Source: Candidatus Rokuibacteriota bacterium
GTDB lineage: Bacteria; Methylomirabilota; Methylomirabilia; Rokubacteriales; CSP1-6
DNA: 32,207 nt
Reading direction: 5' to 3'
Assembly (NCBI GenBank): GCA_016188005.1
Contig: JACPIQ010000041.1
Coordinates: 1-32,207 of the forward strand
Shown: positions 13,784 through 32,087 of the stretch, in pieces
Position numbering within the stretch: the first letter of the stretch is position 1
How the letters are laid out: each line of letters opens with the position of its first letter
Position numbers and translations under genes: made by a program
Notes under the pieces: generated by a model
Database searches by the model: none
Seen by the model: only the letters and a program-made list of their open reading frames with translations
What the model was told of the DNA's origin: nothing

Positions 13784-13859
13784 GGCCCCATCGTCTAGAG
13801 GCCCAGGACACGGCCCTCTCAAGGCTGAAACACGGGTTCGAATCCCGTTGGGGCCACCA
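13784..13859 (+). tRNA. tRNA-Glu (anticodon CTC), island attachment site
   Basis: The acceptor GGCCCCA pairs with TGGGGCC. The anticodon stem CGGCC/GGCTG encloses loop CTCTCAA (anticodon CTC, reads GAG). The T arm is ACGGG-TTCGAAT-CCCGT. Discriminator A and encoded CCA end at 13859. It lies 21 bp after tRNA-Gln and is probably co-transcribed. Its 3' 44 bp are duplicated at 30123-30166, as expected when an integrase uses the gene as attB and leaves the tRNA intact. Confidence 0.96.
13816..13859 (+). repeat. attL-like copy of the 44-bp tRNA-Glu repeat
   Basis: The 3' part of tRNA-Glu, from the anticodon loop (CTCTCAAGG) to the CCA, is identical base for base to 30123-30166. Together the pair bounds the island. 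Confidence 0.9.
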
Positions 13860-14006: not shown

Positions 14007-15362
14007 TCATGGCTCCGCTCGCGCCGCCCAGCGGTGCCGCGCCCGATCGAGGAACGACGGCGCGTCGCTCGGGCCCTGGCCGGCGGCGAGCCGCTCGAAG
14101 CCGGCCATGAAGCCGACCTTTCGATGGTGCGCCTGACGCACCTCCGCGACGAGCGCCGCCCACTCGCGATGGAGGTCGGAGCGCTCGTAGCAGCGCTTCG
14201 CGTTCTCGAAGTGCGAGAGCGCCGCTTCGTAGTACTTGCTCTTCTTCGCCTTGAGGATGCGTATGCCCAGCGCCCGGTAGACCCTGGCCGCCACGTCCGG
14301 GTGCGCCTTCGCGAGGCGCCTGGCGGCGGGCTCGGTCCGGTGATGGCTGAGCTCCTCGATCTCTGGATCGGTTGCCGCGCGCAGGCGTCTCACGAGACGC
14401 GCGACCTCCCGGGTCTCGAGCCAGAGTTCGATGAGCGACCCGAGGTCAGCGCGCTCCGCCGCGTCCATCGCCTTCGCGTGCCACGCTGCGCGCTCGGCCT
14501 TCGGCACGAAGCGCATGAGATCGCCGTAGCTGAACGTGCTCGGACCCTCGCGGAACGCGGCCCAGGCGTCCTCGAGCGCGTCGCGCTGCCGGCCGAGCTT
14601 CGTGAGCAGCTCGCGCTTCAGCGTCACGAGGTCGTGCCCGGCCATCGAGCCGTGTGGGTGCGTCTTCTCCAGCGCGAGACCGCGATCCACCCAGGCGAGC
14701 GCCTCGTCCCGCCGGCGGCGCGTCGTGAGCATGGCGGCGACCGCGAGGCAGTCCTGGGCCGAGAGCTCCGTCTGCTCGCACAGCGCGACGTAGGCCCGCA
14801 CATCGCGCTGCCTGGCGTAGATCGCGCGCAGGATGTCGCCCCGGCGGCGGCGCGAGTACGCGGGGTCGCGCCGGGGCGCGCCATCGGACGCCTCCTCGAC
14901 GGCATCCGTCGCCTCGAAGCGGGCCTTCACCTGTCGCTCGAAGGCGGCGAGGCCGTCCTTGCTCATCACCGTCACGGCATCGCGCTCAAGAGTGTACGCG
15001 AAGCCGTAGGGGTCGGTCTCCATGCGCCCGAGCAGCAGTCTCGCGGTCTCGTCGGCATCCGAGCTTGCCGCCTGGCGGGCCCTGATCCAGCCGCAGTAGA
15101 GGCGCACCACGAACATCGAGAAATTGCCGCCCGAGTCGTCGAGCTCCTCGGCCTTCTCGTAGCAGCCGGCGAGGAAGGTCTCGTAGAGGCCCACGGCTCG
15201 CCCGGCGGCGGTACGGACAAGCGCGTCGAGCTGACCCGCGATCTCCTCGAGGCTCGAGACGAAGTCCCAGCCTGCCCTGTACGCGATGAACCGTCCTGGC
15301 TGGAGCGCGACCTCGATCGCTGCCTCCAGCGGGTCTCGTCGTCCAGGTCTTCGCGTCGTCAT
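14007..15362 (-). CDS. Helical-repeat protein, DUF6880-like
   Basis: 451 residues, almost all helical by composition and rich in Ala, Arg and Glu, with TPR-like pairs in the second half (for example DEALAWVDRGLALEKTHP and YYEAALSHFENAKRCYERSD). No catalytic motif, signal peptide or membrane segment is visible. The order of blocks in the N-terminal half (FVSSLEEIAGQLDALV, then CYEKAEELDDSGGNFSMF, then DPYGFAYTLERDAV) resembles what I remember of DUF6880, whose role is unknown. The ATG at 15362 has GGGGA 8 nt upstream and is preferred to 15431. It lies about 100 bp after a frameshifted helical-repeat gene on the same strand and is the leftmost island gene. Confidence 0.7.
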   Translation of the reverse strand: MTTRRPGRRDPLEAAIEVALQPGRFIAYRAGWDFVSSLEEIAGQLDALVRTAAGRAVGLYETFLAGCYEKAEELDDSGGNFSMFVVRLYCGWIRARQAASSDADETARLLLGRMETDPYGFAYTLERDAVTVMSKDGLAAFERQVKARFEATDAVEEASDGAPRRDPAYSRRRRGDILRAIYARQRDVRAYVALCEQTELSAQDCLAVAAMLTTRRRRDEALAWVDRGLALEKTHPHGSMAGHDLVTLKRELLTKLGRQRDALEDAWAAFREGPSTFSYGDLMRFVPKAERAAWHAKAMDAAERADLGSLIELWLETREVARLVRRLRAATDPEIEELSHHRTEPAARRLAKAHPDVAARVYRALGIRILKAKKSKYYEAALSHFENAKRCYERSDLHREWAALVAEVRQAHHRKVGFMAGFERLAAGQGPSDAPSFLDRARHRWAARAEP

Positions 15363-15462
15363 CGTGCGGTCCCCAGCTCGTCTGCTGTGCGGGGACTGTG
15401 CTGCACGCCCTCGGGTCGGTAAGGAGGCCACGCGCCAGGAGCCGCGCCGTCTTGCGGGCCGC

Positions 15463-20048: not shown

Positions 20049-23000
20049 TCAAGGTGACTGCCGGGCACCCTGCTCCAGGGCCGCCGGGACGTCGGCAACC
20101 CGCTTGGTGATCGCGTAGGCCCACGGGCCGTAGCTGCCATCGGCATTCACCGCAGCCACCCAGCGTCTCGCGGCGGCCACCTTGACCTCTTCGAGGGGGT
20201 CGTAGCCCTTGATCTCGAGCACGAGGTGCCTGGGCGGATCCGTCCGCAGGCGGACGACGAAGTCCGGGACGTAGTCGTGAGTCTGCCCGTTGTGCAGGTA
20301 GGGCATGGCGAACCCGAGGCCGGCGTTCTTCGCGAAGGCCTCAACCAGCGGATGGGTGTCGAGGATGTACGCGGCCGACTGCTCCCACTTTGCCGTGTCC
20401 GCCACCACGTAGTTGACATGGCTTCTCGTCACCTCGCGCACGTCGCGGCTCGTCCAGAAGTCCACTTCCGCGGTCGAACCCTGGCCCCTCCGGCTCTCGT
20501 AGCGTGGGAGCTCGGGCGCCTCGCCACCTGACGTGTCCGGCTTGATGGCGCCCACGAGGGCCTCGATCACCCATCCGTAGTACGGCGACAGGGCCACGTC
20601 GAGCAGGTTCGCCGGCGGAAGCGGGTGGACGCGTTCGGCGAGGAACCGCTCGACGATCCGCGCGAGCTGGGGAAACAGCACGTGGGCGGGCGCCTCGCAC
20701 CCCGGGTGGCCCACGTAATCGCGCGTGAGATCGGCCGCCATGTCAAAGACGATCTGCTGCATCCGGTAGCCGGCCCGATACGGGTTCAGGTCCACGCGCT
20801 CGAGCTTGCCGGGTCCGGTGAGGGAGGGACGCCCCCTGTTGTTGGGCAGCGCCGCCTTCACCTCCACCTCGGGCGGGATCCTCGTGGGGTCGAGCGTGAC
20901 GGACGGCACGGCGGCCCAGTCGAGTGCCACGCGATTGCGGATGGCCTGTCGATACCCCTCCACGCGAGGAAAGCGGATCTCCAGAGCGGACCGGGCTGGA
21001 ACGGCGTGTACGTGATGACGCTTGGGCACCGGCGGCCGGGCGGCGCCCTTGTTCTCCTTGAACGGGATGACCTGGAACGGCACGCCGAAGACCTTCGCGA
21101 CCTCCTCCTCGAGGCGGCCGTTCTCGCCCACCTCGTAGCTGGAGCGCCGGAGCCCGCGGCCCACCACCTGCTCGCACAGGAGCTGGGACATGAACGGGCG
21201 CAGCCCGACGATGTGTGTGACGGTGCTGCAATCCCAGCCCTCGGTGAGCATGCCCACGCTCACGATGCAGCGGACATCGCGGCCTGGGGGGTGTAACGGC
21301 CTTCCGAGCTTGCGGGCCAGCTCCTCGAAGCCCGCGGGGTGGATCGCCCGGCCCTGCCGGTCGACCGGCCAGGCAACCTTGCCGACCGTGTCGAGAGTCA
21401 GACGCATCCAGGCGGACTCGTCGCTCTTGGCCTGATCGCTATCGGTCTCGTGCACCACCTTCGAGTCCACCCGGATCGTGTTCTCGCGCCCCGGCGCGTT
21501 GCGGAAGCCGGCGATGTTCGCCGGGGGGATACCGGCCGGCGGCCGGTCGAGGGCCAGCCACTCGTACACGACCTTCGCGATGGCCGTGTTGCGGCACACG
21601 AGGATGAAGACGGGCGGCCGTGGATCGTCCTGTCGCCACGCCCATTCGGCGCGCAGCTCCTCCCATAGCCCGGCCAGCATGGCGACGGGCGTGGCCGCCC
21701 ACTTCACCACGGCCTCCGGCTTGGGGTTGCCGCGGGAGCCGCCGCGCTCGCCCGCCGTGAGCCGCGGCATGATCCAGCGCCAGATGTTGAAGTAGCCGGG
21801 GATCTCGGCGCCCGTCGTGTCCCGCACGGCGAGCTGCGGGATCTTCACCAGCCCGGACTCGATGGCGTCGGTGAGGCCGAAGTCGCTCACCACCCAGGGG
21901 AAGATGCGGTTGGTGTCCGGGCCCATGCGGCCGAGGTAGTACGGCGTGGCCGACAGGTCCACGCAGAAGTTGATGCCGCGCAGCTTGTGGATGCGGTCCA
22001 GGCCGTCGACCCAGACCGTCGCCTCGCGGTAGAACTCGTCCTCGTCCTCGGCCTCGCCGAAGAGACCGTCAGTCTCGCCATTCGGCTCCTCGCGGCGGAT
22101 GCGGTAGGCGTGGTGCGCCTCGTCGTTGAAGACGAGGATGTTCTGCTTCCCGCCAACCTCCCGGCCGATCACGCGATTGACGAGAGCCGTGTCGCTCTCC
22201 ACGTAGCGGACCGCCTCCACCCGGACCCTTCTGAGGTTGCCCTGGCGGTCGCGGTTCTCCTCGAGGACCGCCAGGAGGCCGGCCGCGAGCTGGCGGTCCA
22301 GCTCCTCGGGCGTGAGGTAGCGGCGATTGCGGGCTGTGGTGGTCTTCGGCCCGATTGTGATCGTCTCTTGCGTCCGGACCGCGACGCCGGCCCGCGCCAC
22401 CTTGGCGCTCACCCCTCCCGGGGTCATGGCCTGAGGCTCGAAGACGTGCCAGTTGGTCATGAGCACCCGCCCCTGGGTGAGGTCGGCCATCAAGTGGGGC
22501 GGCACCAGGTCCCGGGTCCGGTAGAGGCTGGCGTCGCCTCCCTGGGGGTCCAGCTCGCCGAGGCGGCTGCGGATCGTGACGTTCGGGCAGATGACCAGGA
22601 CCACGTCGGAGAAGCGGGCGTCGCTCCGGTTATTGACCTTGTTGAGGATGCTCCAGGCCGCGAGCATGGCCATGACGGTGGTCTTTCCGCTGCCGGTGGC
22701 CATCTTGCAGGCGAACCGACGGAATGCGGTGTGGCCGGCCGCCCGCCGCTCCTCGCTCGGCTCGTCGAGAGGGATGTCGATGCCCTGGCGGAAGTCGGCC
22801 CGCGCCTCGGTGAGGAAGATGATGGTCTCCGCGGCCTCGCGCTGGGCGAAGAAGAGCCGGTGCTGGCGGCCCTCGCGCGTCCAGTACTCCAGCAGCTCGC
22901 CCGTGGTGCGCGTGACGCCGGGCCGGCCCGCCGCCTGCCACTCCTTGAGCCGCTGGCGGACGCGGCTGACCAGCTTCAGCTCGATGAGAGTGCCGAGTCC

Positions 23001-23165
23001 GTCGGCCTCGCCTTCGCTGACGGGGCCGGGCGGCCGGTAGTAGTACATGGCGGGTCGTCGCCCGGGCTCCAGGCGCGGAGGCTCGCCCTCCACGATGCGC
23101 CAGTGCTCGCCGGGCTCGTCGTACGGGCCGCTGAGGATGGGTTCTGGGACCTCGAATTCGCTCAC
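20049..23165 (-). CDS. res: Type III-like restriction helicase-nuclease (Res subunit)
   Basis: 1038 residues. A superfamily 2 helicase core shows Walker A ATGSGKTT (156-163), DEAH box FNDEAHHAYR (348-351), SATP (405-408) and motif VI EQVVGRGLRR. A C-terminal PD-(D/E)XK nuclease follows: PD at 967-968 (DYVPDFVVRL) and E984-x-K986 (LVLEIKGYD). It should cut DNA lacking the cognate methylation after ATP-driven translocation or sliding. The family may be the one named BPTD_3080-type in current databases (from memory). The GTG start at 23165 overlaps the ATPase stop as GTGA. It is the last gene of the mod-ATPase-res operon. Confidence 0.92.
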   Translation of the reverse strand: MSEFEVPEPILSGPYDEPGEHWRIVEGEPPRLEPGRRPAMYYYRPPGPVSEGEADGLGTLIELKLVSRVRQRLKEWQAAGRPGVTRTTGELLEYWTREGRQHRLFFAQREAAETIIFLTEARADFRQGIDIPLDEPSEERRAAGHTAFRRFACKMATGSGKTTVMAMLAAWSILNKVNNRSDARFSDVVLVICPNVTIRSRLGELDPQGGDASLYRTRDLVPPHLMADLTQGRVLMTNWHVFEPQAMTPGGVSAKVARAGVAVRTQETITIGPKTTTARNRRYLTPEELDRQLAAGLLAVLEENRDRQGNLRRVRVEAVRYVESDTALVNRVIGREVGGKQNILVFNDEAHHAYRIRREEPNGETDGLFGEAEDEDEFYREATVWVDGLDRIHKLRGINFCVDLSATPYYLGRMGPDTNRIFPWVVSDFGLTDAIESGLVKIPQLAVRDTTGAEIPGYFNIWRWIMPRLTAGERGGSRGNPKPEAVVKWAATPVAMLAGLWEELRAEWAWRQDDPRPPVFILVCRNTAIAKVVYEWLALDRPPAGIPPANIAGFRNAPGRENTIRVDSKVVHETDSDQAKSDESAWMRLTLDTVGKVAWPVDRQGRAIHPAGFEELARKLGRPLHPPGRDVRCIVSVGMLTEGWDCSTVTHIVGLRPFMSQLLCEQVVGRGLRRSSYEVGENGRLEEEVAKVFGVPFQVIPFKENKGAARPPVPKRHHVHAVPARSALEIRFPRVEGYRQAIRNRVALDWAAVPSVTLDPTRIPPEVEVKAALPNNRGRPSLTGPGKLERVDLNPYRAGYRMQQIVFDMAADLTRDYVGHPGCEAPAHVLFPQLARIVERFLAERVHPLPPANLLDVALSPYYGWVIEALVGAIKPDTSGGEAPELPRYESRRGQGSTAEVDFWTSRDVREVTRSHVNYVVADTAKWEQSAAYILDTHPLVEAFAKNAGLGFAMPYLHNGQTHDYVPDFVVRLRTDPPRHLVLEIKGYDPLEEVKVAAARRWVAAVNADGSYGPWAYAITKRVADVPAALEQGARQSP

Positions 23166-24814
23166 AGCCCGAACGCCCTCATGATGCCGTCGAGCTTCTC
23201 GGTCACCTCCGGGTGGATCTCCTCCGGCCGCATGAACGCGGCGATCTCGTGATACCTCGTGTAGGGCAGCCCGGGTAGGCCAGCCGCCGCCAGGGCGGGG
23301 GGCAGTAGCTCGGAGCGCGCCTTCGTGGCGTTCAGGAATGCATGGTCGCCCAACGGATCACGGAGGACTGCGGGCGGGAAGTTCTCCCGGAGGTATCGCC
23401 GCAGGTCCGCGACGTGGGGGGCGGCGGCTGCCGGGCCGACAGTGTGCTCGACGAAGCGAACAAGCGCCTCGGGATGCACGAGGTAGCTCTCGATCTCGTA
23501 GCGTCGCCATCGGAGGCGCTGGAATCCGCGCCCGGTGATCTCGGTCGGCTGGATCTCGGGGCGGGCGTCTCCATCCACGAGCTCAATGGCGGGGAGGTTC
23601 TCGCGGACCAGCCGCAGTGCCTCGTAGTGCTGCGGGGCGCGGATGCCCGGGGAGCCCGTGCGTGTCTCCGCGACCGTGGGCCTCCAGAAGAACGTCCGAG
23701 AGCCGAAGAGGTCGTAGGCGGGATGCCCGAGAACCCGCGCCCACTCGCGCAGGATATCGCGGTCGGTGTAGTTCTCGAGATAGAGCACGCCCGGCGCGGT
23801 CAGGGCCAGCATCATGTCCGTCTGCGACAGGACCTTCAGCGAGAGGATCACCCGCGCCTGCTCTTCCGTCGTCGCCAGCATGCGCGGCCCGTCGAAGAGG
23901 ACGCAGAGCTCCCGGGGCTCCGCCCCGTTGATGATGACCTCCGAATGCGTGGCGATGATCAGCTGCGAACGCGCCTGGGCGGCGACGGCGCGGAGCTCGC
24001 CGCAGATGGCATCCTGCAGGATCACGTGGAGATGAGCGTCCGGCTCGTCCAGCAACAGGACGGCGCCGGGGCGCGTCTGGAGAAAGGCCAGGAGCATCAG
24101 CACCTGCTGGAACCCGCTCCCCGCGCTGGCGATATCGAGCGCGGGGCCGCCCGGCCGCTCTCGGTACTCCGCCAGGATGTGCGGCCCCGCGGCGTCGGGG
24201 GGCGTTAGCTCGAAGCCGAACAGCCGGCGGATCGAGGCTTGCAGACCCGTCCAGGCGCGCTCCGAGGCGGCGGCCTCCACGAGCAAGTTCCGGAGCACGT
24301 CCCCGGGCTTGGCCTGCCCGAGGAGCTGATCGACCTTCGGGCGCTGGTAGAGCGGTTCCTCGGTGCCGAGGCCGCTCATGGCGGGGACGAAGACCGTCGT
24401 CAGGTGGGCGGCCCTCACGACCTCGGGGCTCGCGGCGGGGAGCGGCCGGACGTAGATCTGCTCGGTGCTGTCGGCAATCAGCTCCATGGCGACCGTCCAG
24501 CCGTCGAGGGCGCTCTGGATCTCGATCTCGAGACTTCCCCGGTAGTCCCGCTCCCTCCACAGGAGGTCGAAGGAGCGCAGGGGAACCGCGGAGAAGGCCT
24601 GGCGCGCGATGGGGGCCCTGGTGTAATAGCCCCCGTGGCGCTGGTAGTCGTTGAGCTGCTTCCATCGCTCGAGGGCCAGCGACCAGGCCGCGATGGCCTG
24701 GAGCACGGTAGTCTTCCCCGTGTTGTTCGGGCCGGCCAGCACCACGTGCCCGGGCAGGACGAACTCGACGTCGCCGAACCGCTTGAAGCGGCGCAGACCG
24801 ACGCGGTGGATCAC
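23162..24814 (-). CDS. OLD-like ATPase with TOPRIM-like C-terminus, in an R-M operon
   Basis: 550 residues from the GTG at 24814, which overlaps the mod TGA (GTGA). The N-terminal half is an ABC-type ATPase related to OLD/RecF: Walker A GPNNTGKT (28-35), signature SAGSGFQQ (230-237), Walker B LLLDEPDAHLH (253-263) and H-loop ATHSE (288-292). The C-terminal half has VLYLENYTDRDIL (E347) and LVDGDARPE (D414, D416), which fit the E...DxD layout of a TOPRIM nuclease as in OLD proteins. The TOPRIM reading is inference. It lies between methyltransferase and restriction genes, so it probably regulates or adds a nuclease activity to the system. The longer frame to 24943 lies inside mod and is not used. 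Confidence 0.85.
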   Translation of the reverse strand: MIHRVGLRRFKRFGDVEFVLPGHVVLAGPNNTGKTTVLQAIAAWSLALERWKQLNDYQRHGGYYTRAPIARQAFSAVPLRSFDLLWRERDYRGSLEIEIQSALDGWTVAMELIADSTEQIYVRPLPAASPEVVRAAHLTTVFVPAMSGLGTEEPLYQRPKVDQLLGQAKPGDVLRNLLVEAAASERAWTGLQASIRRLFGFELTPPDAAGPHILAEYRERPGGPALDIASAGSGFQQVLMLLAFLQTRPGAVLLLDEPDAHLHVILQDAICGELRAVAAQARSQLIIATHSEVIINGAEPRELCVLFDGPRMLATTEEQARVILSLKVLSQTDMMLALTAPGVLYLENYTDRDILREWARVLGHPAYDLFGSRTFFWRPTVAETRTGSPGIRAPQHYEALRLVRENLPAIELVDGDARPEIQPTEITGRGFQRLRWRRYEIESYLVHPEALVRFVEHTVGPAAAAPHVADLRRYLRENFPPAVLRDPLGDHAFLNATKARSELLPPALAAAGLPGLPYTRYHEIAAFMRPEEIHPEVTEKLDGIMRAFGL

Positions 24815-27633
24815 GCCCCGGCGTCCGTCAGGCGCTTCACGACGAGCAGCTCGTTGCCCCGGTCGTCGATGACCTTGACCGCCACCTGCCCGTGCTCGCC
24901 CGCCTCGAAGGGCGCGCTCACAGTGCCGGCAAGATGCTCCCACACCGCGTCGTCGTACTCGCCGCGGAGCGCGCGCCGGAGGTCATCCCAGGCCCCGGTG
25001 CGTGGGAAGAAGGCCTGGCAGACGTGGAAGCAGAGGCCGTTGTAGTCGGTGTCGAGGAACCAGGCGGGCACGTCGGCCGCGTCCATGTGCTTGGCGCTCA
25101 TCGTCGCCGGATCGAAGAGATTGAGCTTTGTCAGCTTGACCTCGTACCGCTTGTCCCGTAGCCGCCGAAGCTCCACGTCGGGCAGGCCGCACACGCTGAA
25201 GATCTGGCTCGACCGCATGTTCTTGAGGAGGTCGCCCATCACGAGATCGGGCGTGGCCTGCACGTAGCTGGCCGGCGGCAGCCCCATCTCGGCTGATCGT
25301 TCGATGAGCAGGCGCGCGTCCGGCTGGATGGCAAAGCCGATAGCGTAGAGGTGCATATAGCCCTTGAAGCTAGCTTCCTTCAGCGCCTCGTGTACAGCAA
25401 GCTGGGTGAGGCCACCATTCTCGGGCCCGAAGATCAGGGCCACGGGCCGCTCGTCGCCGTTGGCGACCACCGCCTCCGCTGACAGCGACAACGTCTTGGC
25501 CGGGGGGCGGACGTTCCGGAGGGTTACCGTCTTGCCGCCACCCACGTGGAGCACGGGCGACTTGCGGAGCACCTCCAGCATTCGGTCGACGAACGAGCCG
25601 TGCGCCTCCGCGTCGGCCGCTCCAGAGTCCGGCACCCCGTCCCCCTCCCAGTCCACAGGGGTCGGGATGGTCGCCTCGACGGTGAACGGCCCCGTCACCC
25701 GAACAATGCCGCCGTCCACCTCCGGCCGGTCGACGAGCACCTCCTCGTCGGGCGGCTCGTTGTTGGCGATGCTCTTTAGGGTCACGTGCGGGACGACGCC
25801 GCCAACCTCCTCGCCCTTCCGGTTCTGCTTGCGGGCGTAGACGAATCCGCCCACGGGCCCCCGCGCGTGGTCCTTCAGCTGGTAGTAGGGGAAGGTCGCC
25901 GTGAGCAGCCGCTGACGGGCGAGGGTCAGCGGCACCCGGCTCGTGTCGACCGTGATCCACCGCCTGCCCCACTGTTCGGCGACGTAAGCCGTCGTGCCGC
26001 TGCCACAGGTAGGATCAAGCACGAGGTCACCGGGATCAGTTGCCATCAGGACGCAGCGCCGAACAACTTCTTCGCTCGTCTGGACGACGTAGACCTGATC
26101 ACGCGCGCCTGCAGTGTCCTCCCAGGTGCTTGTCAGCTTCCGAAGGCGATAGTCGTCCAAGTAAAGCACGTAGCGGAGGTAATTGCCCTCAGCCTCGATC
26201 CTATTGGCGTCGACAAGGGTCCGCATTGCCTCAGGGCTTGACGGGTAGCACTGGCCGGGAGGTGGCCACCATTCCTTTCCTCTCCAGAGGACAGGAAAGA
26301 CGCCAGACCGGCTGAAAGTCGGAGGCCACATCGACACAAGGCGGAAGATTCGCGCGCCGTTGGGCAGAAAGGCATGGGAGTTCATCTGCTCTTTCGTCAT
26401 GGGATGGCGGCTTCCGTCTGAAAGCTCATACCACTTCCAATGGAAATCCCCTTCAACGGATTGTTCCTTGTAGAGCTGTCGATAACGAGAGGGCAGCCGG
26501 CTGACATCTCGGCCGTACCAGAGCAGGAAATCCCCCATCGACTCGAGAAAAATAGATCCAAGCGGCATCGTCTTCTTCCGGAAGAAGATCGTGCTGAGGA
26601 AGTTGTCTGCCCCGAACACCTCGTCCATCAGCTCCCGCACGTGGTGCAGGTTCTCGTCGCTGATCTGGACGAAGATGCTGCCCGTGGGGGCCAGCAGCTC
26701 GCGGCAGAGGAGCAGGCGGTCCCGCATGTAGGTCAGGTACGAGTGCAGGCCCAGCTCCCAGGTGTCCCGGTAGGCCTTGACCATCTCGGGCTCGCGCGTC
26801 ATGTCGGCGTCGTCGTTGTGGCTCACGTCGCGGCGGCGGACGAAGGGCTGGAAGTTGGAGCCGAACTTCACGCCATAGGGCGGGTCCATGTAGATCATCT
26901 GGACCTGGCCGCCGAGCCCCTCGTAGTGGAGGAGGGAGTTCATGACGACCAGCGAGTCGCCGAGGACGAGCCGGTTCACCCACTTGTCTGGGTACTCGTA
27001 GGCGCGGAGGGTCTGGTCCGTGATAGGGTGCTGTGGGTCGCCGAAGAGCTCGAACAGGGTCTGCTGCTTGTCCCGGCGGTGGCTGGTGAGCGTCTCGACG
27101 ATGGCCTTGGTCGATAGACGCTCGTGGATGAAGAGCGGCAGCGTGGGCACGTCGAAGGACAGGCGCTCGGCCTTGCCCGCCCAGTCGAGGAAGGGCTTGC
27201 CCAGGCGGCGGAGGTGCTCGACGGCCTCGTGAAGCGAGCCGACGGAGAGGAGCACGGTGCCGTCGGCCGCCTTGAGCTCGCGCGGCCGGTCGAAGGCATG
27301 GGGCGGCGGGAGGGCAGCGGCTTCCTGGATGAGCCGCAGGAGCCACTCGCCGACCTCCCGGGCAGGGTTCTGTCCGTCCCAGTTCAGCGCGGGGGCGAGC
27401 GAGGAGTCGTAGCGGTAGGTCGCCGGCGGTTTCTTCTTCCTGAACTGGGGCTGCGTCCCGATCTCGGGACGCATGGGGCTGGTGGCCTCGTAGTGGCGGT
27501 AGTTCTCCGCGACCCGGCCGGGGTTTTCCCCGCCGGCCCCGTCGCGCCGCGCGCGCCTCACCGCCATGGAACGCCCTTTCCCGGCGCTACCCCTGCGGCT
27601 CCCCGGCTTGGCTCCGCGACGCCTGTTCCTCAC
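24811..27633 (-). CDS. mod: Type III-like site-specific DNA methyltransferase (Mod, beta class)
   Basis: 940 residues. Motif IV MIYMDPPYG (DPPY 250-253) precedes motif I LDPTCGSGTTA (539-549), the beta-class order, which predicts N6-adenine methylation. The target-recognition region between them (about 350-520) is visibly lower in GC than the rest. After motif I come about 390 residues of mostly unassigned sequence, including a block PVALIFGPENGGLTQLAVHE. It modifies host sites and, in type III systems, also gives Res its specificity. The GTG at 27633 has GAGGAGG 5 nt upstream; an ATG at 27567 (MAVRRARRDG, GGGAAAGGG upstream) fits typical family starts and is a real alternative. It is first in the three-gene operon. 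The 230-bp spacer 27634-27865 contains no gene. Confidence 0.92.
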   Translation of the reverse strand: MRNRRRGAKPGSRRGSAGKGRSMAVRRARRDGAGGENPGRVAENYRHYEATSPMRPEIGTQPQFRKKKPPATYRYDSSLAPALNWDGQNPAREVGEWLLRLIQEAAALPPPHAFDRPRELKAADGTVLLSVGSLHEAVEHLRRLGKPFLDWAGKAERLSFDVPTLPLFIHERLSTKAIVETLTSHRRDKQQTLFELFGDPQHPITDQTLRAYEYPDKWVNRLVLGDSLVVMNSLLHYEGLGGQVQMIYMDPPYGVKFGSNFQPFVRRRDVSHNDDADMTREPEMVKAYRDTWELGLHSYLTYMRDRLLLCRELLAPTGSIFVQISDENLHHVRELMDEVFGADNFLSTIFFRKKTMPLGSIFLESMGDFLLWYGRDVSRLPSRYRQLYKEQSVEGDFHWKWYELSDGSRHPMTKEQMNSHAFLPNGARIFRLVSMWPPTFSRSGVFPVLWRGKEWWPPPGQCYPSSPEAMRTLVDANRIEAEGNYLRYVLYLDDYRLRKLTSTWEDTAGARDQVYVVQTSEEVVRRCVLMATDPGDLVLDPTCGSGTTAYVAEQWGRRWITVDTSRVPLTLARQRLLTATFPYYQLKDHARGPVGGFVYARKQNRKGEEVGGVVPHVTLKSIANNEPPDEEVLVDRPEVDGGIVRVTGPFTVEATIPTPVDWEGDGVPDSGAADAEAHGSFVDRMLEVLRKSPVLHVGGGKTVTLRNVRPPAKTLSLSAEAVVANGDERPVALIFGPENGGLTQLAVHEALKEASFKGYMHLYAIGFAIQPDARLLIERSAEMGLPPASYVQATPDLVMGDLLKNMRSSQIFSVCGLPDVELRRLRDKRYEVKLTKLNLFDPATMSAKHMDAADVPAWFLDTDYNGLCFHVCQAFFPRTGAWDDLRRALRGEYDDAVWEHLAGTVSAPFEAGEHGQVAVKVIDDRGNELLVVKRLTDAGA

Positions 27634-28348: not shown

Positions 28349-29518
28349 CTACTTCGGGCCAGTCCTCCTGGAAGTGCGACGAGCGCCACGGCGTCGGCTC
28401 TGCACGGTCTTCCCGAATGCCAGGTTCCAGCGCTTGCCTGGATGGTCGAACTTCACCGTCTTCGGATTGAACCGCTCCGGATCGAACCGGCCGCCGAGCC
28501 ACTGCAGGGTGCGCTCGTACTCCTCGTGCGTGGGGTCGCGCATCACCGCCATGAGATCCTCGTACCCACCGACGCCCCCGCAGTCCTCGGGCGGGCACGC
28601 CCGCTCGCCGGCGAGGCAGCGCGGATAGCGGACGCCTTTCTGGCGCGGCAGGATCGCCTCGAGAGTGACCTCGTGCTCCCAGCCGTCTCCGAAGTCGTAC
28701 TCGTACTTTGCCGCGGCACCCGGGCGGGAGAAGTAGCGGGCGATGGGGAGATCCCATCCCGGAAGGATGGGCTCGTCGCCCTCGAAGGCGTCCTCGTCCG
28801 GGATGCCGATCTGCACGATGTCGGAGGTGCCCGGCCTGCTCACACGAAAGAGGTGCAGGTGGTAATCGAGCCAGCCCATCGAATCCTGGATGGCGACATG
28901 CAGGCCCCAGAAGCTGTAGCTCCCCGGCACCTGGATGGTCCTCCAGATCGGCGGCGCGACTTCGAGGAGAACGATCCTGAACTGGTAGACCTCACTCCCG
29001 GCTTGCACGCGCTCTTCCCGGCCGCTGGTCGCCGGGCCCAATGCTCCGGCGCCTCGCCGGGCCCCTTGGCCTGTCCCCCGGCCGCTGTCGCGGACTCCGC
29101 GCTGCCGCGGTCGACCACGTTCCGGCCGTGGCGCAGCCCCGCCCGGTGGCCGCGGCGCCTTCGACGTTGACACAGGCCGAACCCCGCGCTCCCGTCTTGC
29201 CACGAAGGTCGACTCATCTCCCTGGTGGATGAAGAGCTTCCCGCGCATCGTGTCGCCATCGATGCGCGCCCAGGCCCGGCCACCGGCTGCATCCATCTCG
29301 TCGAAGCCGGACCACGAGAGCTCCACGACGGACGCGCCCTCGCGCTGCTCGACCCGGTAGTCGATCGATGCGCCGATCGCGATCAGTTGCATCTCCCCCA
29401 GGCCGTTGCCGTCGAAGCTGATGTACGCTGGCACGACGAGGTCGAGTGCCTCCTGATCCCACAGCTCCGTCTCCACGATTCTCCACCGGCCCTCGATCAA
29501 CGATTCACGTCTTGCCAT
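28349..29518 (-). CDS. Two-domain protein: small N-terminal domain fused to pRiA4b ORF-3-like domain
   Basis: 389 residues. Residues 1-112 form a compact, beta-rich domain (RWRIVETELWDQEALDLVVP, YISFDGNGLGEMQ, VELSWSGFDEMDAAGGRAWA) that I believe also occurs as a stand-alone protein. Residues about 113-175 are a Pro/Arg/Gly-rich linker. The rest is the plasmid pRiA4b ORF-3-like domain (PF07929): YQFRIVLLEVAPPIWRTIQV, YEYDFGDGWEHEVTLE, and a Cys-containing PRCLAGERACPPEDCGGVGG block that could bind a metal. The family is linked to mobile elements but its biochemical role is unknown. The fusion may be native or result from loss of a stop codon. The ATG at 29518 is the only good start. Confidence 0.85.
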   Translation of the reverse strand: MARRESLIEGRWRIVETELWDQEALDLVVPAYISFDGNGLGEMQLIAIGASIDYRVEQREGASVVELSWSGFDEMDAAGGRAWARIDGDTMRGKLFIHQGDESTFVARRERGVRPVSTSKAPRPPGGAAPRPERGRPRQRGVRDSGRGTGQGARRGAGALGPATSGREERVQAGSEVYQFRIVLLEVAPPIWRTIQVPGSYSFWGLHVAIQDSMGWLDYHLHLFRVSRPGTSDIVQIGIPDEDAFEGDEPILPGWDLPIARYFSRPGAAAKYEYDFGDGWEHEVTLEAILPRQKGVRYPRCLAGERACPPEDCGGVGGYEDLMAVMRDPTHEEYERTLQWLGGRFDPERFNPKTVKFDHPGKRWNLAFGKTVQSRRRGARRTSRRTGPK

Positions 29519-29584
29519 CGCACTCTGCCCATACTGGAGTTGCTGATGAGATGCGTGGGCCAGTCCGACCCCCGACTGGTCACG

Positions 29585-29943
29585 TCAACGGGAATAGAGC
29601 AGTCTCCCCTCGCGGCCGACCGTGGACGGTAGCGACGCGCGCAGATGCAGCCGCCCGGTGAACGCCGCGTGGGTCCAGACGAGGACGTCGCCGGCCGCCG
29701 GGAGCCCCCAGAGAGCCTCATAGGCCCGCGCGCTTCGCTGCAGGGCAGGGGGACGTCGCCTGGAACGACCACGAGCAGATCGTGATCGTTCTCCGGCCCG
29801 GCTGTGCCTCGCGCGCGCGAGCCGAAGAGATAGATGCGTTCGGGTCGGTAGGTCTCGACGAGGCGGCGCGTGATCTCGACGGGCGTCGGGTCCTCGACCG
29901 GTACGGTGAACTGGCTTCCGGGCTGCGCGCGATCGGTCGTCAT
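29585..29943 (-). pseudogene. Frameshifted MNT-type nucleotidyltransferase
   Basis: The first frame, from the ATG at 29943, encodes the minimal nucleotidyltransferase core: RPERIYLFGSRARGTAGPEN followed by DHDLLVVVPGD (GSxARG and DxD). Near 29745 the frame is lost. The expected C-terminus continues in another frame as LQRSARAYEALWGLPAAGDV, VLVWTHAAFTGRLHLRASLP and STVGREGRLLYSR, stopping at 29585. Members of this family act as MntA antitoxins that AMPylate HEPN toxins; no HEPN gene is adjacent. It probably represents toxin-antitoxin debris at the island edge. A sequencing error could also produce this break. Confidence 0.75.
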
Positions 29944-30122: not shown

Positions 30123-30166
30123 CTCTCAAGGCTGAAACACGGGTTCGAATCCCGTTGGGGCCACCA
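30123..30166 (+). repeat. attR-like displaced 3' end of tRNA-Glu (44 bp)
   Basis: Identical to 13816-13859, covering the anticodon loop, variable region, T arm, acceptor 3' strand and CCA. The 5' half of the tRNA is missing, so it is not a functional tRNA. The tyrosine recombinase gene ends 92 bp further right. Confidence 0.9.
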
Positions 30167-30258: not shown

Positions 30259-31398
30259 CTATCGGCTCAAGACGTCGAGCGCCTTCGCCTCGTAGAACTC
30301 CACGGCCAGCTTGAGCGCGGCCGGCCGGATCTGCGCGTAGAGCTGCGTGGTCTCGATGCGCGTGTGCCCCAGCAGGCCGCGCACCTGCTCGAGATCGCCG
30401 TGCTGCTCGTAGACCTCCATCGCCACGCCGTGGCGGAGGTCGTGGGGCTTCAACATCGGGTAGCCGATGAGGCGTCCGTAGGTCTTGCAAAGTCGCCAAA
30501 TGTTCTTGCCTTCCATCGGGCGGCGCACGGTGCCCTGGCGCCGCTGGCCGAAGGTCGACCAGAAGAGCGGCGCGTCGGGGGTGATGTCGTCACTTTCGGT
30601 CGGTAGGTACTCCGAGACGTAACGGTCGAGGTACTGCATCACGACGCTGGGGAGCGGGATGTCGCGGGTCTTACCACCCTTCACGAGCACGTTGCGGAGG
30701 CCCCACTGCGGATCCAAGTTGCAGACTTTGAGCGTGGCCACCGACTCCCGCCGCATGCCCGAGTAGCGAAGGATCAGGAAGATCGCCAGGTCGCGCGGAC
30801 GCTGGCGCTGCTGGGCAGCCTTGACGAGCGCGTCCATGATCGCCGCGCCCGGGACCTGGCGCGGCGCCTCGCGGCGATGCGGCGGCCGGTCGAGGCGGGC
30901 CACCGGATTGGCATCGAGGTGACCGCGCTTCACCAGGAATGCGCACAAGCTCGAGAGCGTGGACTGACGCACGCGTATGGTGCCAAGGGCCAGGTCCGCG
31001 GCCGCCATGCTATCCATCGACGCCTGAATGGTGGCCGCGTCGAGATCGCCGACGCATGCCGGCCGGCCACGGCGACCAGCGACGAACGCGAGGTACTGAG
31101 CGGGATTCCATCGGTAGGTCTTCACGCCTCCTTCCGCCTTGCCGCGCTGTTTGCGTTGGAAAAAGCAGAACTGCTCCACCAAGTCGATGAGCGGTTGGGC
31201 CATGCTCCCGGTCCTCCGGCCCGAGCCACGGCCACGTTTTCGCCGGGGGCCAGTCTCGGGTGGGACCAGCCAGCCGTCAAGAGCTGTCTTGGTCGGGGCT
31301 GGCCGAGCGAGGGCCTCGGGGTTCGGAGCAGGGAGCTCCAGCTGGGCCCAAAGGCCTGGGACTGATCGGTGGCTGTGAGGAATCCGGCGAGATGGCAT
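30259..31398 (-). CDS. int: Tyrosine-family site-specific integrase
   Basis: 379 residues from the ATG at 31398. The N-terminal SAM-like core-binding domain (about 68-165) is followed by a catalytic domain with all expected residues: R216 (YSGMRRES), K243 (GGKTRDIP), H319/R322 (HDLRHG), H345 (LLGH) and nucleophile Y354 (TTQLYAQI). The first ~65 residues are Pro/Arg-rich and unlike the domain; an internal ATG (residue 66, MAQPLIDLVEQF) could be the real start. It points toward the displaced tRNA-Glu fragment and is the likely enzyme for integration at tRNA-Glu. It appears intact. Confidence 0.93.
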   Translation of the reverse strand: MPSRRIPHSHRSVPGLWAQLELPAPNPEALARPAPTKTALDGWLVPPETGPRRKRGRGSGRRTGSMAQPLIDLVEQFCFFQRKQRGKAEGGVKTYRWNPAQYLAFVAGRRGRPACVGDLDAATIQASMDSMAAADLALGTIRVRQSTLSSLCAFLVKRGHLDANPVARLDRPPHRREAPRQVPGAAIMDALVKAAQQRQRPRDLAIFLILRYSGMRRESVATLKVCNLDPQWGLRNVLVKGGKTRDIPLPSVVMQYLDRYVSEYLPTESDDITPDAPLFWSTFGQRRQGTVRRPMEGKNIWRLCKTYGRLIGYPMLKPHDLRHGVAMEVYEQHGDLEQVRGLLGHTRIETTQLYAQIRPAALKLAVEFYEAKALDVLSR

Positions 31399-31452
31399 GG
31401 TGAGTGCCTGATTCGTCTTGGGGCAAGGAACTTGCCGGAAGTAGATACCCCC

Positions 31453-32087
31453 TTCCCCCACCGGCCGTGACAGCCGCTGGTGCGAACGATCTCGCCGACG
31501 CCATGCGCCGCCTCGGCGAGCCGATCGAGGCCACGGCCGACGTGACGCCGGGCGATGCGGGTCAGCGATTCTCGATGCATGCCTTCGGCGCCGTGTTCGT
31601 GGAAGTCGCAGTCGATCCGGATCTCGGCGAGACGCGCGTGCGCCGTATCGTCGGCGCGTACGGCGCGGGCCGCATCGTGGATCCGAAGATGGCGCGCAGC
31701 CGGTGCGTAGGCGGCATGATCGGGGGCATCGGCATGGCGCTCATGGAGCATTCGGTCGTCGACTCGAACAACGGCCGAGTGCCGAACGCCAACCTCTGCG
31801 AATATGCCGTGCCGCTCTACGCCGACACACCGCGCGCCATGGACGTGATCTTCGTGGAGGAGCACGACCCTCACGTGAACCCGCTTGGCGTGAAAGGCAT
31901 CGGCGAGATCGCGATGGTCGGCGTCCCGCCGGCGATCGTGAACGCCGTCTTCCACGCGACGGGCAGGCGCATCCGCGACCTGCCGATCACGCCGGACAAG
32001 CTGCTCTGAGGAGCGAGCAAGGACATGGGCCGGACAGCGGCGAGTTCGTCAAATTCCCCGAGAACTATGTCACGGCCGGTGGGGGAA
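31453..32087. repeat. Perfect 20-bp inverted repeat around a gene fragment
   Basis: TTCCCCCACCGGCCGTGACA at 31453-31472 is the exact reverse complement of 32068-32087. The arms enclose about 595 bp that contain the xanthine-dehydrogenase fragment. Short GAAGTAGA/AAGTAGAT strings lie just outside both arms. No transposase lies between the arms. Confidence 0.8.
31473..32009 (+). pseudogene. 5'-truncated xanthine dehydrogenase-family molybdopterin subunit
   Basis: About 178 codons that correspond to the extreme C-terminus of the ~750-residue molybdopterin-binding subunit of xanthine/aldehyde/CO dehydrogenase-type enzymes. Visible blocks are AFGAVFVEVAVDPDLGETRV, GGMIGGIGMALMEHSVV, then NANLCEYAVPLYADTP, HVNPLGVKGIGEIAMVGV and a terminal DLPITPDKLL. 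The frame can be extended to an ATG at 31404, but that part crosses the inverted-repeat arm and the integrase leader and is not homologous. The front of the gene is absent, so it is a remnant cut by element insertion or rearrangement. Confidence 0.85.

Follow-up and report, generated by a model that had tools for sequence, protein, structure and literature searches.

A type III-like restriction-modification operon with an OLD-type ATPase-TOPRIM gene in a variable slot between mod and res

Defence genes embedded in other defence operons

Type III restriction-modification (RM) systems carry out an ATP-dependent cleavage that requires two sites and a complex of Mod and Res. OLD proteins of class 2 are defined by a tandem UvrD/PcrA/Rep-like helicase (GajB), while PARIS is triggered by an Ocr-like antirestriction protein and cleaves tRNA-Lys. 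Hma is said by Payne et al. to carry embedded defence genes (HEC, Septu). PrrC, the anticodon nuclease of EcoprrI, becomes active once its RM system is inhibited by phage Stp, and PrrC and PARIS are both regarded as RM guardians (PMC12707154). DarTG2 sits between hsdS and hsdR of a type I RM system (PMC12255303), OLD-TOPRIM proteins in BREX are described as backup suicidal effectors (PMC12839542), and HmaB is an m5C methylase (PMC8565338).

The operon described here lies in the draft genome of a Candidatus Rokuibacteriota bacterium, on a contig of 32,207 bases that was analysed at its full length (the window). As in EcoprrI-PrrC and DarTG2, an effector gene is found inside an RM operon. There, however, the hosts are type I RM systems and the effectors a HEPN-type anticodon nuclease and an ADP-ribosyltransferase, whereas here a type III-like mod/res pair encloses an OLD-type ATPase-TOPRIM gene. 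PARIS (AriA-AriB, class 4 OLD) likewise pairs an OLD-type ABC ATPase with a TOPRIM domain, and its complexes were the next fold matches after OLD. PARIS has separate ariA and ariB genes; the window has a single fused gene between mod and res with weak similarity to AriA, and we did not assign it to PARIS. OLD class 1 and class 2 (GajA of Gabija) share its ATPase-TOPRIM order and catalytic motif. The gene was placed in neither, as class 1 genes are standalone while this one is embedded, and class 2/Gabija genes lie beside a UvrD/Rep helicase while its helicase neighbour is the SF2 restriction helicase Res; Pfam gave no UvrD domain match in the operon.

The BREX OLD-TOPRIM proteins are, likewise, OLD-ABC/TOPRIM backup effectors within a methylation-based defence operon, but their host is a PglZ-based locus and not a BPTD_3080 RM operon. 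Like the operon here, that of Hma joins a helicase to a methylase and an ATPase and is reported to contain embedded genes, and one related locus (L174) has a payload that itself matches HEC-01AB. Membership in Hma was rejected because Mod is of the N6/N4 type (N6_N4_Mtase), in contrast to the m5C methylase HmaB. The mod-res slot holds exchangeable defence and TA genes inside another defence operon, which is what marks an embedded defence module. We found no OLD gene or variable slot described for type III-like operons in the literature, where earlier mention in work on embedding or on ABC ATPases is possible, and the RM-embedded OLD clade, like its host locus, appears to be undescribed. Embedding of backup defences is already known for type I RM (PrrC, DarTG), Hma and BREX; on our reading, the present locus adds a type III-like RM family of wide distribution.

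Three coupled genes and their predicted products

The operon and its parts are as follows.

24811..27633, minus strand: mod, type III-like (beta-class) adenine DNA methyltransferase, at most 940 aa
25984..26583, minus strand: Mod target-recognition region, from DNA identity between the window and L125 and from low conservation of residues 341-520
24811..24814, minus strand: mod/ATPase GTGA overlap (Mod stop TGA, ATPase start GTG)
23162..24814, minus strand: OLD-type ABC ATPase-TOPRIM payload gene, 550 aa, GTG start
23165..23797, minus strand: TOPRIM nuclease domain, residues ~340-550, with E347, D351, D414, D416, E440 and E442
23162..23165, minus strand: ATPase/res GTGA overlap (ATPase stop TGA, Res start GTG)
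20049..23165, minus strand: res, SF2 helicase of the BPTD_3080 family, C-terminal PD-(D/E)xK nuclease, 1038 aa

The ORF list and the junction DNA agree on three co-directional open frames on the minus strand, Mod, ATPase and Res, with GTGA at both junctions, and thus confirm the operon layout first proposed for this DNA. The ORF list offers a longer frame of 593 aa for the ATPase, but the family alignment begins at the GTG of the 550-aa frame; because this start also fits the GTGA junctions, we take 23162-24814 as the gene. In the 940-aa frame of Mod, homology sets in around residues 38-45, and the true Mod start may lie up to ~120 bases inside 27633.

Mod matches Pfam N6_N4_Mtase (4e-30) and PADLOC MTase_III (PDLC03632, 486 bits), and a phmmer search of solved structures returned the Mod of 6k0w (5e-18) and EcoP15I Mod (4zcf, 4e-9). 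Its motifs follow the beta-class order, with DPPY ahead of the SAM motif and the TRD between them. In DNA comparison with L125, most of 25984-26583 is 26-50% identical, while both sides are 80-93% identical; the poorly conserved residues 341-520 fall in the same region, which is exchanged even between sister species. Res matches NF046055, 'BPTD_3080 family restriction endonuclease', over its full length with 1021.7 bits (cut-off 800), whereas PADLOC REase_III covers a short helicase stretch alone (26.9 bits). It has a ResIII domain match and conserved SF2 helicase motifs, and its PD-(D/E)xK site is almost unchanging (P967, D968 and E984 each in 94/94 sequences, K986 in 92/94). A PDB sequence search with Res found no type III Res and no relative beyond the helicase motif. 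We describe Mod and Res as a type III-like RM operon. The same genome holds two more BPTD_3080 res fragments at contig ends (L135 on C37, L136 on C114), which are only 32-44% identical and part of other systems.

The middle protein was originally predicted to be OLD-like, and both its domains and its fold bear this out. AAA_21 (7.8e-21) and AAA_15 match the protein, whose N-terminal part carries the Walker A, signature, Walker B and H-switch motifs of the OLD N-terminal ABC ATPase. G28, S233, G234, D256, E257 and H290 are invariant in 59 homologues, of which 57 have K and two have R at position 34. In the TOPRIM domain, D351, D414, D416, E440 and E442 are invariant (59/59), with E in 55 and D in four sequences at residue 347. 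The catalytic residues hardly vary, whether in the 42 members embedded in RM operons or in the 17 solitary ones. The earlier suggestion that the protein could add a nuclease of its own is supported by this predicted TOPRIM nuclease. The metal ligands of Burkholderia OLD are E400, E404, D455, D457, T506 and E508 (PMC6755086); with residues paired by motif order and not by superposition, the residues found here match them, except that D351 replaces E404 and E440 replaces T506.

An AlphaFold (AF2) model of the whole protein reached a pLDDT of 93.7, and its best Foldseek match was the class 1 protein Thermus OLD (TsOLD, 6p74; 492 columns, E 2.8e-14). With the C-terminal domain modelled alone (pLDDT 96.9), the five best fold matches were class 2 OLD C-terminal regions, followed by PARIS AriB. 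The TM-scores by query length are low (0.44-0.47 for class 2 OLD, 0.33-0.34 for AriB), and the TOPRIM fold is therefore OLD-type but not close. A PDB sequence search returned short matches to the ATPase part alone, and AriA scored 28 bits in a profile search. By motifs and model, the middle protein is of OLD type, an ABC ATPase with a C-terminal TOPRIM domain and an intact active site.

Recurrence of the operon and turnover of the mod-res slot

Anchored on the ATPase, a scan of 84,980 species with one genome each confirmed at least 481 relatives. Among the best 80 of these, nearly all above ~47% identity lie between Mod and Res, and the Mod-OLD-Res operon spans ~14 phyla with the same 4-base overlaps, which supports the original statement that related three-gene loci exist. 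The Mod-ATPase junction is exactly -4 in 42/59 readable related loci, and the ATPase-Res junction in 44/63. Relatives at 38-44% identity are mostly solitary, often amid housekeeping genes, and form a separate tree branch; in two Anaerolineae loci (L105 and L107, 8001-9719) the solitary member sits between parA-like and parB-like genes. This setting makes a non-defence role possible for the distant branch, and archaeal Cran1 provides a precedent (PMC12796447). Of 95 genomes from the window's phylum, five have the ATPase and 16 have a Res above the cut-off. In a plasmid collection, Res relatives occurred in 47 records, with no close ATPase.

A 4-base overlap is by itself frequent in operons. Its conservation on both sides of OLD across ~14 phyla, together with the shared gene direction, would be expected if the operon encoded a true three-subunit restriction enzyme, in which an obligate OLD gates or completes Mod-Res cleavage and translational coupling sets the stoichiometry. 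Sampling from Res bears on this directly. We read 26 loci whose Res is 57-91% identical to the window's, leaving out genomes used as centres. OLD occupies the slot in 11 (L125, L126, L129, L139, L142, L145, L150, L162, L168, L041 and L175, the last two with an extra insert between Mod and OLD), the slot is empty in two (L140, L159), and 13 hold other content:

L143, L144, L169: opposite-strand 163-aa family, function unassigned
L149: IS200 transposase
L160: zinc-finger protein alone
L161: MNT and HEPN
L163: DUF4160 and DUF2442
L164: DUF2281 and PIN (VapBC-like)
L165: DUF4258 and MqsA-like (DUF4258/YgiT)
L170: MNT-HEPN fusion
L171: unassigned gene and Fic
L172: DUF3800
L174: HEC-01AB (413 and 213 bits)

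The sampled phyla were picked for holding at least one OLD-bearing locus, and the OLD occupancy of 42% is thus likely an upper figure. Between mod and res, the ATPase is thus largely sporadic, an outcome that by the original prediction would speak against a single three-gene unit. This exposes a sampling trap: anchored on the ATPase, the three-gene unit seems fixed, whereas anchored on Res it does not. For the same reason, a near-fixed OLD within one Res clade, as the ATPase-anchored scan and a first Res tree had suggested, was rejected on the evidence of Nitrospirota and Gemmatimonadota loci sampled from Res. More distant Res have slots with DUF3800 (L116), PIN-like genes (L132, L151), DUF4258 (L130) or PDC-M07A (L156), or empty ones. 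In L096 and L102 a gene pair adjoins OLD, typed as PD-T4-4-like in L096. Some cyanobacterial, alphaproteobacterial and methylotroph plasmids have the order res-X-mod, where X is UPF0175-DUF3368(PIN) or hypothetical genes.

Two observations may be added on these slots. The 163-aa family (L143:9234-9830, L144:7676-8161, L169:6226-6711) comes from three loci of one Res clade, and its members in L144 and L169 have no Pfam match. Plasmid pAQ5 of Picosynechococcus PCC 7002, a genetically tractable strain, carries res-UPF0175-DUF3368(PIN)-mod (L180:4989-11673).

4-base overlaps likewise flank unrelated payloads, at one end or at both (L161, L170, L172, L174, L115, L116, L156), which argues that the overlaps mark the slot and not an OLD-Res partnership. 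The original claim that they imply fixed stoichiometry and a single functional unit is therefore not borne out, given also the variable Res-anchored sample. On a Res tree of 64 rows with 13 payload labels (FastTree; one long branch, L138), at least 22 label changes are required. Seven closely related Nitrospirota loci comprise two with OLD and five with other payloads. In the pairs L161/L164 and L160/L164, unrelated slots lie between Mod and Res ends that mostly share 80-95% identity.

Alleles of OLD itself are exchanged as well. Between L076 and L079, the Mod ends are 90-100% and Res 73-99% identical, with ATPase DNA at ~50-60% (one window 72%), and sharp-edged exchange is also seen in L037 versus L103 and in L074 versus L096. 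OLD alleles only 42-51% identical have been swapped while Res stayed 91-96% identical. In L126, codons 347 to ~538, the TOPRIM part, are missing while the ATPase domain and Res are retained and Mod runs off the contig, a loss that rests on one draft genome and could be an assembly fault. Identities correlate closely for Mod-Res (0.88) and much less for the ATPase, at 0.63 with Res (0.70 without three swapped loci) and 0.55 with Mod. The ATPase-Res correlation and the rank of OLD as commonest occupant speak for a three-subunit enzyme. Against it stand the close Mod-Res pairs with an empty slot or unrelated genes, the overlaps shared by other payloads, the allele swaps beside near-constant Res and the TOPRIM deletion beside an intact Res, and we regard such an enzyme as highly improbable. 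The mod-res slot looks exchangeable, and OLD does not look like a fixed third part.

The operon has one other exchange island that is regularly present, the Mod target-recognition region, and it varies independently of OLD. A match between ATPase allele and target specificity was considered and rejected: L076 and L079 have the greater part of the target-recognition region in common yet differ in the ATPase, and L102 and L096 show the opposite. That swaps are unlinked to this region, and that solitary members keep all catalytic residues, would suit an independent defence gene on a common promoter, with OLD a class 1-like nuclease acting against phages whatever the state of the RM system. We nevertheless think this unlikely, as most members above ~47% identity occupy precisely the mod-res slot and have coupled start codons, a position inside the operon that suggests a benefit. 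The cassette boundaries coincide with gene edges, as they would if a selfish or homing element used its TOPRIM nuclease to spread into the mod-res junction. Yet unrelated genes use the same slot, and ordinary homologous recombination within the conserved mod and res ends would also leave sharp flanks, which makes homing barely credible.

Proposed role of OLD and genomic setting

The reading we prefer, and consider fairly likely, is that of a type III-like RM operon with a variable payload slot, in which OLD is translated together with Mod and Res and serves as a semi-independent second line of defence. This reading as an embedded backup module draws on the slot, which in loci with like Mod and Res holds unrelated but thematically alike modules (HEPN-MNT, PIN, DUF4258/YgiT, DUF4160/DUF2442, DUF3800, Fic, HEC-01AB, PD-T4-4-like with OLD, PDC-M07A). 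It draws further on the payload turnover, the allele swaps, the near-invariant catalytic residues, the TOPRIM deletion in L126, the intact OLD genes that occur without mod and res, and the precedents of PrrC, PARIS, DarTG2 and the BREX OLD-TOPRIM proteins. We infer the following course. The ABC ATPase part would keep the TOPRIM nuclease inactive until a phage-derived trigger appears, most plausibly a sign of blocked restriction, as for PrrC and PARIS. The released nuclease would then cut nucleic acid (DNA or tRNA) and halt the infection, possibly at the cell's cost. The sensing of phage interference by OLD, one of the original suggestions, is possible and would be the leading mechanism. As the commonest single payload (11/26), with 4-base overlaps at both ends, OLD would also fit a closer physical partnership, and the solitary branch amid housekeeping genes leaves room for a role outside defence.

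In a bolder and rather doubtful version, the BPTD_3080 mod-res slot would be a dedicated docking site for interchangeable suicide effectors on one RM core. The OLD clade embedded in RM operons would be a new class of OLD, with swappable alleles that recognise phage proteins blocking this RM system. The loci form a natural series, with a near-identical Mod-Res core and differing payloads or none, which permits a direct test of the idea that suicide effectors are taken up by RM systems as guards.

The operon lies on a 16.3-kb segment that is apparently integrated at a tRNA-Glu gene, because an exact 44-base repeat of the tRNA end is found beside an integrase:

13784..13859, plus strand: tRNA-Glu (CTC), whose final 44 bases (13816-13859) are repeated exactly at 30123-30166
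30123..30166, plus strand: second 44-base copy of the tRNA-Glu 3' end, putative att site
30259..31461, minus strand: tyrosine integrase (Phage_integrase 1.1e-21), adjoining the att copy just beyond the 16.3-kb segment

In 12 related loci checked, no tRNA adjoins the operon. A mobile setting of this kind would suit addiction or stabilisation cargo, where TA-like slot genes penalise cells that lose or silence the RM operon, without specific phage sensing; many payloads belong to classic TA families, and RM systems can themselves act as addiction modules (PMC12707154). OLD, however, is a single protein without an antitoxin-like partner, and intact OLD genes persist without mod and res (L059, L064, L066, L080), so that OLD is not selected against once the RM genes are gone. 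For OLD we thus hold a role as addiction cargo to be very unlikely, and return to the backup module as the preferred reading.

The segment and its border have further features. The position of the integrase beyond the second 44-base copy suggests islands in tandem, or an element truncated where the contig ends. Two proteins are encoded at 28349-29943, upstream of mod and on the same strand. One is pRiA4b ORF-3-like (E 4e-62); the other, a small MNT-type nucleotidyltransferase (29497-29943), is of a family also found as slot payload in other loci. A DUF6880 protein is encoded within the island at 14007-15431 on the minus strand.
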